Positions 7,451 through 61,514 of a stretch of DNA of 64,000 bases are shown in pieces. A program made the position numbers and the translations under genes. Source of the stretch: Leptolyngbya sp. PCC 6406. Lineage in GTDB: Bacteria; Cyanobacteriota; Cyanobacteriia; Phormidesmidales; Phormidesmidaceae. The DNA is taken from contig NZ_KI913949.1 in NCBI RefSeq assembly GCF_000332095.2, positions 3,702,876-3,766,875 on the forward strand. The letters run 5' to 3'. The notes under the pieces were generated by a model. It saw nothing but the letters and a program-made list of their open reading frames with translations. It had not been told where the DNA came from and ran no database searches. Every line of letters begins with the position of its first letter. The stretch's first letter is position 1.

Positions 7451-7588
7451 GGGTATCAACGTAAGCCGAGACAATATTGGTTCCGAGGAATTCAGTAGTC
7501 AGGAGCCAGAATCCAGTACCCTCCTAGATTCTGGCTCCTAGCTCCTAACTCCTCCCCACGAGATTTGTCCCGCTTTGAGTTGATACCC
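7451..7588. mobile_element. MITE-like element, copy 1 (138 bp)
   Basis: Ends are imperfect 24-bp inverted repeats starting GGGTATCAAC and ending GTTGATACCC (about 19 of 24 match). An internal hairpin pairs GGAGCCAGAA with TTCTGGCTCC. A second, inverted copy is at 61286-61416 and carries an 8-bp target duplication; this copy does not. No transposase is encoded, so mobilisation would be in trans. The rest of the 7256-7652 gap holds short G-rich direct repeats and no gene. Confidence 0.8.
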
Positions 7589-59853: not shown

Positions 59854-61245
59854 CTATTGGGGGCTATCAGGCGTAGCGCGACGAGGGGCGGGACGCCAGC
59901 CGGGGAGGGTAATTTGCTTGGCACGGGCGACCACCAGACAGTCATCCTCTACATCCTTGGTGACCACAGAGCCTGCCCCCACTGTCACATCGCTGCCCAG
60001 GGTGACGGGGGCCACTAGGACGCTGTTGGATCCGGTTTTAGTGCGATCGCCGATGACCGTAGGGTGTTTCTGATAGCCGTCGTAGTTAGCGGTAATGGTG
60101 CCTGCGCCGATATTGACGCGGTCTCCCAGGGTGGCGTCGCCAAGGTAGGACAGGTGGGCAGCATTCACGCGATCGCCCAGGGTGGATTTCTTGATTTCGA
60201 CAAAATTTCCCACCCGACAGCCCTGGCCAATAGTGACCTGTCCTCGCAGGTGAGCATAGGGACCAATGCGACTATCCTTCGCCACCGTGCTATCGCTAAT
60301 GACGGAATAGAGCACCGTTACATTTTCCCCCAACTGGCTATTTTCAATCAAGCTACCGGGACCAATGCGACTGCCACACCCCACCTGAGTCTGTCCCCGC
60401 AGGTGGGTTTGGGGCTCGATCACGACATCTGGAGCTAATTCCACCGTGGGATCAATGGTGATGCTGGCGGGGTTGATCAGGGTCACCCCTGCGGCCATCC
60501 AAGCATCCTTAATGCGATCTTGTAGAATATCGTAGGCAGCAGCCAACTGTTTGCGATTGTTGATGCCCTGAATTTCCTCCGGGTCCGCCACATCTACCGC
60601 CATCACTGGAGCCAGATCCTGCACCACATCGGTCAGGTAGTACTCATTCTGGTCATTTTCCGCCTTGAGATGGGGCAGTACCGCCTCTAGGGCGGGCCAG
60701 CTAAAGCAATAGACTCCGGCATTGATGCGACGATTCTGACGCTGGCTGTCGGTGCAGTCGCGATGTTCAATGATTTCCGTTACCACATGGTCATCGGTGC
60801 AGAAGACCCGCCCATAGCCAGTGGGGTCGTCAAACTGGGCTGTTAGCAGGGTGGCGGCGTTACCCTGGCGGCGGTGGACAGTCCACAATTCTTCTAGGGT
60901 GCTGGGGCGTAACAGGGGCACATCGCCATTCAACACCAGTAGATCGCCGTCAAAGCCTGCCAGATGGGGCAACACCTGCTGCACCGCATGGCCCGTGCCC
61001 AACTGCTGGGTCTGTTCTACAAAGGTAATCTGGGGACGGTGGGCTAGGGCGGCCTTTACCTGATCGGCCCCGTAGCCGACAATCACCAGTTGGTGGCTGG
61101 GGGTGAGGGTGCCGAGACTGTCGAGGGCACAGTCCACCAGGGATCGTCCTCCGAGGGGGTGCAGCACCTTCGGCAAGCTGGACTTCATACGGGTCCCTTT
61201 ACCAGCTGCCAAGACTGCTACCGCTAGCTTCGATCCCATGCCCAT
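59854..61245 (-). CDS. glmU: Bifunctional UDP-GlcNAc pyrophosphorylase/GlcN-1-P acetyltransferase
   Basis: 463 residues from ATG 61245 ([26 protein letters not shown]). The N-terminal uridylyltransferase has the G-x-G-T-R-M-K loop and [10 protein letters not shown]. The C-terminal part is a left-handed beta-helix of hexapeptides ([48 protein letters not shown]). It supplies UDP-GlcNAc for peptidoglycan and surface glycans. A TTG at 61263 would add six residues. Confidence 0.96.
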
Positions 61246-61285
61246 TTCCCCGCTAATTGACAATATTTGGTCCTTAAATAATCAG

Positions 61286-61416
61286 GGGTATCAACTCAAA
61301 GCGGGACAAATCTTCTGGGGAAGAGTCAGGAGCTAGAATTCAGTACCCTCCTGGCTTCTGGCTCCTAACGCCTGAATTCCTCGGAGCCCATATTGTCTCG
61401 GCTTACGTTGATGCCC
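61286..61416. mobile_element. MITE-like element, copy 2, with 8-bp target duplication
   Basis: 131 bp; ends GGGTATCAAC and GTTGATGCCC. It is the inverted counterpart of 7451-7588 (shared GACAATATTGG/CCATATTGTC region, and the GGAGCTAGAA and TTCTGGCTCC hairpin). ATAATCAG is present directly before (61278-61285) and directly after (61417-61424), a perfect 8-bp target duplication, so this was a genuine insertion. No transposase inside. It fills most of the 61246-61514 gap. Confidence 0.88.
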
Positions 61417-61514
61417 ATAATCAGGGTTTTAGCCAGTCCTCTATGGCTCCTGATCAAACCTGCGTTTGGGAGTATACCGTGCCTCGATGGTACGCAGCTA
61501 GCAGGGCAGCAGAG

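Follow-up and report, generated by a model that had tools for sequence, protein, structure and literature searches.

A MITE Copy Upstream of a glmU-Like Gene

Within the window, the 64,000-nucleotide stretch of Leptolyngbya sp. PCC 6406 DNA that we analyzed, a noncoding element of 131 bp (61286–61416) lies between perfect 8-bp repeats of ATAATCAG (61278–61285 and 61417–61424), just upstream of a minus-strand gene (59854–61263) that we take, from inspection of the sequence by eye, to be glmU-like. The element is bounded by inverted, imperfect ends, GGGTATCAACTCAAAGCGGGACAA and GGGCATCAACGTAAGCCGAGACAA. Its left end (GGGTATCAACTCAAAGCGGGACAAA; 61286–61310, plus strand) is the counterpart of the 5' end, and its right end (GGGCATCAACGTAAGCCGAGACAAT; 61392–61416, minus strand) the counterpart of the 3' end, of the DUF6399 elements described below. 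The interval between them (61311–61391, plus strand) is a palindromic core of degenerate heptads of the GGAGTTA / GACTCCT type, the number of which produces 7-bp length steps among copies.

Because the bases ATAATCAGGG are common to both sides around the ATAATCAG repeats, the exact cut is ambiguous from this copy alone, and the 8-bp register was fixed from the MITE family. The window holds a second, inverted copy of 138 bp (7451–7588, minus strand), whose flanks agree at just three of eight positions and which therefore lacks a target-site duplication. The sequence-only reading had described the two copies in these terms, as a non-autonomous MITE with a perfect 8-bp duplication and an inverted copy without one, and both descriptions hold.

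In a congener (G002) that lacks the MITE at this place, a TATACT box lies in the region before glmU, some 40 bases ahead of the ATG. A similar GGTATACTCC is found in the window on the far side of the MITE from the glmU-like gene, so the insertion was probably within the leader of the predicted transcript of this gene. No base-by-base alignment of an empty ATAATCAG site was found in the congeners, in which the leader does not align and the coding DNA is about 74% identical to that of the host. At another host locus (G000:C1 about 133964), 235 bp including a MITE correspond to 55 bp between aligned flanks in a congener (G003), consistent with the latter being a putative empty site, with a spacer unalignable base by base.

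A Dispersed Family with 8-bp Target-Site Duplications

The 131-bp element, used as a query against the host genome, scored at 40 places. The end pattern, with at most three mismatches, occurred 140 times (69 forward and 71 reverse), compared with no occurrences of the reversed pattern used as a control; the recurrence of the ends that the sequence-only reading proposed to look for was thus confirmed, and the ends match DUF6399 elements as well. Among the fetched loci, at least 59 two-ended copies were legible, and the copy numbers for the host are to be read as lower bounds. The duplication was perfect over 8 bp in 18 of the 59 and agreed at seven or more of the eight positions in 24, against 0.06% of control pairs mixing different copies, and these figures uphold the earlier claim that the duplication records a real transposition. 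Agreement at four or fewer positions was seen in 28 copies. In-register duplications of 5, 6 or 7 bp were found in none of the 59, and one of 9 bp was found once.

The element at 61286–61416 is short, lacks coding capacity and has terminal inverted repeats as its bounds; it has many dispersed copies with target-site duplications (59 two-ended, 18 perfect), and its ends are common to an autonomous transposon, the DUF6399 elements of relatives. It belongs to a genuine MITE family, ordinary in kind. Prokaryotic MITEs, including the cyanobacterial Nezha, have been described before and are likewise short, noncoding, bounded by inverted ends and presumably mobilized in trans (PMC10969869); they are set beside the present family by general description.

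The nearest-neighbor identity of the host copies had a median of 96%, with no identical pairs, and the mean divergence from the consensus was 0.066 for copies with intact duplications and 0.076 for those without (p = 0.045), figures that would fit an old, inactive family. Copy lengths were 81, 88, 117, 124, 131, 138, 145 and 152 bp, with a few others, and 51 of the 59 equal 5 modulo 7. The gain or loss of whole heptads by replication slippage is probably the simplest reading of these steps.

Some loci are more complex. At one of them, near 391.6 kb of G000:C1, a MITE copy has another partial end, GGGTATCAACTCC, immediately ahead of its GGGTATCAACTC, which suggests a nested or tandem insertion. 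Another region (G000:C1:127500-138500) packs four copies into about 7.6 kb; two of these lack most of the core and measure only 81 and 88 bp. Sibling MITEs were seen in congeners (loci L032, L050, L035 and L044; genomes G003 and G002) and in other genera (L033, L043 and L047; G019 and G009); the heptad core and the arrangement GCGGGACA..core..TTGTCCCGGCTTAA are retained in these, but the outer ends have diverged.

DUF6399 Elements Have Matching Ends and Duplications

The first 25 bases of the MITE recur in related genomes, where they border longer repeats, and the longer repeats with MITE-like edges were traced to DUF6399 proteins (PF19936). In Nodosilinea and Leptolyngbya, the DUF6399 elements are about 1.75 kb long and have 24–25-bp ends similar to those of the MITE and perfect 8-bp duplications. 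The genome of Leptolyngbya sp. PCC 7375 (G005) contains a 1.75-kb element in many near-identical copies, and perfect 8-bp duplications flanked all seven copies that were read at both ends. Of 63 genomes in the order, 17 have a match to PF19936. When 84,980 species were scanned with one genome each, 44 DUF6399 loci came up, every one of them in a record with a cyanobacterial title; at most of the intact loci, the two ends were separated by about 1.75 kb and the 8-bp duplication was perfect.

The ends closest to those of the MITE belonged to the DUF6399 elements of one genome (G051) and two further loci (L203 and L239). For the G051 element, 22 of 24 bases matched both left to left and right to right, compared with 19 and 21 when the sides were swapped; for several other elements, the match was not clearly side-specific. 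Past base 24 the similarity ends (2–8 of 20), and because only the ends are common, the MITE does not represent a known element shortened by simple internal deletion. DUF6399 transposons such as those at G051:C4, G064:C320, L203 and L204 thus resemble the MITE in their 24–25-bp ends and 8-bp duplication but are 1.75 kb long and encode a protein of ~533 aa, whereas the MITE lacks the coding part and has an unrelated heptad core. Its ends fit the GGGTATCAAC..AAGCSGRGA type of the DUF6399 transposon family, as defined here, and it shows the 8-bp target duplication of that family; encoding no DUF6399 protein, it is placed as a derivative working with the family and not as an autonomous member.

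The gene is also carried by a plasmid of the gammaproteobacterium Candidatus Thiodictyon syntrophicum, with 26% protein identity. A blind search for inverted repeats around this copy gave GGCCTTGATCATAAATCCGG and GGCCTTGATCATCGTTCCGG as the best pair (17/20, starting with GG), and the duplication on its flanks, GTCCAACC, is perfect over 8 bp. The same kind of search around the plasmid copies of Crinalium and Acaryochloris gave no clear pair, and a search of viral contigs found no DUF6399.

Two further loci have parts resembling these elements. In Leptolyngbya sp. PCC 7375 (G005:C5 about 8155324), a DUF6399-type 5' end and first codons are followed by masked bases and a different transposase-like frame, an arrangement that resembles a chimera or an insertion. 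An ISAs1-type IS adjoining a similar end in another genome (G006) was set aside, its likeness to DUF6399 elements being confined to its 5' part.

A DUF6399 Relic in the Host Genome

A PF19936 search of the host genome and a profile built from eight DUF6399 proteins found no intact DUF6399 gene, and the profile gave weak matches only. The genome does hold a relic of ~110 bp (G000:C1:4438731-4438840), in which DUF6399 coding sequence (residues ~122–152) is joined to a transposon end, GGGCATCAACTTAAGCCGAG. The coding part is read in two overlapping frames, as AQAEDCQPTEGRGVWGP.. and ..LGADETFFGLPN, and the inverted end GGGCATCAACTTAAGCCGAG follows directly, so that a segment with the DETFFGLP coding motif is fused with a 3' transposon end. 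It is a decayed DUF6399 element with its 3' end still attached. An open frame that resembles an EAL-domain gene runs into the relic at its 3' end, its final codons being transposon DNA. In the congener G002, a decayed N-terminal part of DUF6399 contains three stops.

Apparently unpaired ends in the host were mostly those of MITEs whose partner end had diverged, and at the loci read none of them bounded a full-length element with MITE ends. The full-length IS with the same ends that the sequence-only reading suggested searching for was accordingly not found in the host, where the DUF6399 relic is the sole trace. Its proposal of an unlinked transposase is supported with one correction: the genome contains, in place of an intact DUF6399 gene, a relic on one transposon end. 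As the host keeps this relic but no intact gene, the MITE family is probably orphaned and seems to have outlived its parent.

The DUF6399 Protein as a Candidate Transposase

Neither Pfam nor NCBIfam gives DUF6399 a transposase name; database records for these proteins read "DUF6399 domain-containing protein," and the family is listed as being of unknown function. No mention of DUF6399 was found in the literature searched, and the matches listed for GGGTATCAAC were all unrelated. Against ISL3 models the proteins scored weakly, with 15.4 and 14.4 bits, far under the cut-offs; DDE_Tnp_ISL3 (PF01610) reached 14.4 and 10.8 bits, below the Pfam cut-off of 23. An hhalign comparison of DUF6399 with ISL3 proteins of the same genomes gave a faint, colinear alignment (E 0.0021, probability 13%), pairing GADETFF and ADLFHALRAL of DUF6399 with GIDEIAL and ADRFHV of ISL3, and an EGxN motif lies further along in both. 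The two families differ at the N terminus, where the ISL3 profile has CxxC pairs and DUF6399 an HTH-like stretch. Two AlphaFold2 runs were unreliable in the presumed catalytic region, which one model left unfolded (pLDDT <50 at 129–173 and 183–217), so the models do not establish a DDE/RNase H fold, and a fold search of the PDB with a model unreliable in this region gave no significant match. Our best guess, which is not a result, is that DUF6399 is a DDE transposase with a distant relation to ISL3.

Taken jointly, the following picture has, in our judgment, somewhat better than an even chance of being right in full. DUF6399 would be the transposase of an IS family not yet named as such, whose elements measure about 1.75 kb, start with GG at their ends, leave 8-bp duplications and occur across several cyanobacterial orders as well as in gammaproteobacteria. 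The protein would combine a distant relation to ISL3, an HTH-like N terminus and, ahead of an EGRN motif, a long segment that is mostly helical, and a MITE family widespread among cyanobacteria would have arisen from this IS family.

Origin of the MITE Family

The host has recurring ends, dispersed copies, duplications and the relic, and DUF6399 elements match the MITE in ends and duplications. Together these findings point to a family that a DUF6399 (PF19936) transposon mobilized in trans through its transposase, the autonomous element having since decayed in the host; we assign this reading a probability of roughly 0.87. One counterpoint is that the MITE and the proposed parent have only their ends in common. 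The duplication size by itself is compatible with other parents. The families IS256 and IS66, named as possible parents by the sequence-only reading, leave 8-bp duplications, as seen in the MITE, but the elements found with MITE ends encode DUF6399, and for the tested DUF6399 proteins neither Pfam nor NCBIfam gives a hit to an IS256 or IS66 model. No IS256 or IS66 element with MITE ends was found among the elements examined, in a search of these families that was non-exhaustive, and we consider parentage of this type the least probable of all.

ISL3 elements, too, make 8-bp duplications, and the host has about ten copies of an ISL3-family IS, with ten intact 423-aa transposase frames, that might have mobilized the MITEs; the faint similarity of the ISL3 and DUF6399 profiles, with colinear D and FH motifs, speaks for the same possibility. 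The ends decide against it. The right end of the host ISL3 is ...CCGGAAGAGCC, or GGCTCTTCCGG when inverted, with no likeness to GGGTATCAAC, and the ends of a host copy, GGCTCTTCC, are unlike those of the MITE and DUF6399 elements. We therefore rejected the host ISL3 as the parent, a scenario only slightly more credible than the IS256/IS66 one. Host ISL3 copies (e.g., at G000:C1 425328, 2182082, 2625765, 2782256 and 2882296) have equal family scores and 423-aa frames, and the five compared share sequence throughout, ending ...CCGGAAGAGCC, so the IS was probably recently active. Neither ISL3 nor "8 bp" appears in the text of a review on MITEs (PMC10969869).

A different kind of explanation is that the repeat, instead of being a plain mobile element, is retained for its own function, such as a structured RNA leader or a regulatory hairpin. 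The whole element folds as one long hairpin (z −5.9), and the copy at 61286–61416 probably sits in the 5' leader of the glmU-like gene. Among 19 copies of equal length, however, 4 compensatory cells stand against 43 pair-breaking ones, so there is no sign of selection on the pairing, and with covariation absent we rejected a hairpin maintained by selection. An Rfam search of the MITE gave no match of note, and the target duplications indicate insertion. We judge retention for function very improbable, if marginally less so than parentage by ISL3.

Under mobilization by DUF6399, the enzyme would have recognized the 24–25-bp inverted ends of the MITE and made staggered cuts at insertion, giving the 8-bp duplication, as the 8-bp repeats suggest. 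The autonomous element would later have decayed to a fragment in the host; since it did, the copies are probably immobile now, with duplications that may be eroding by drift. The heptad core does not derive from known DUF6399 elements and changes in length by whole heptads, probably through replication slippage. Because an intact gene is absent from the present genome, the role of DUF6399 is a reconstruction of past events, in which transposase activity, action in trans and the present inactivity of the family are all presumed.

Through the analysis, DUF6399 passes from an unannotated protein family to a probable transposase whose ends and target size are defined, a proposal that is testable and with which annotators may find more copies. 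In Leptolyngbya sp. PCC 6406, the MITE family has seemingly outlived its parent, whose remains stay legible in the same genome.
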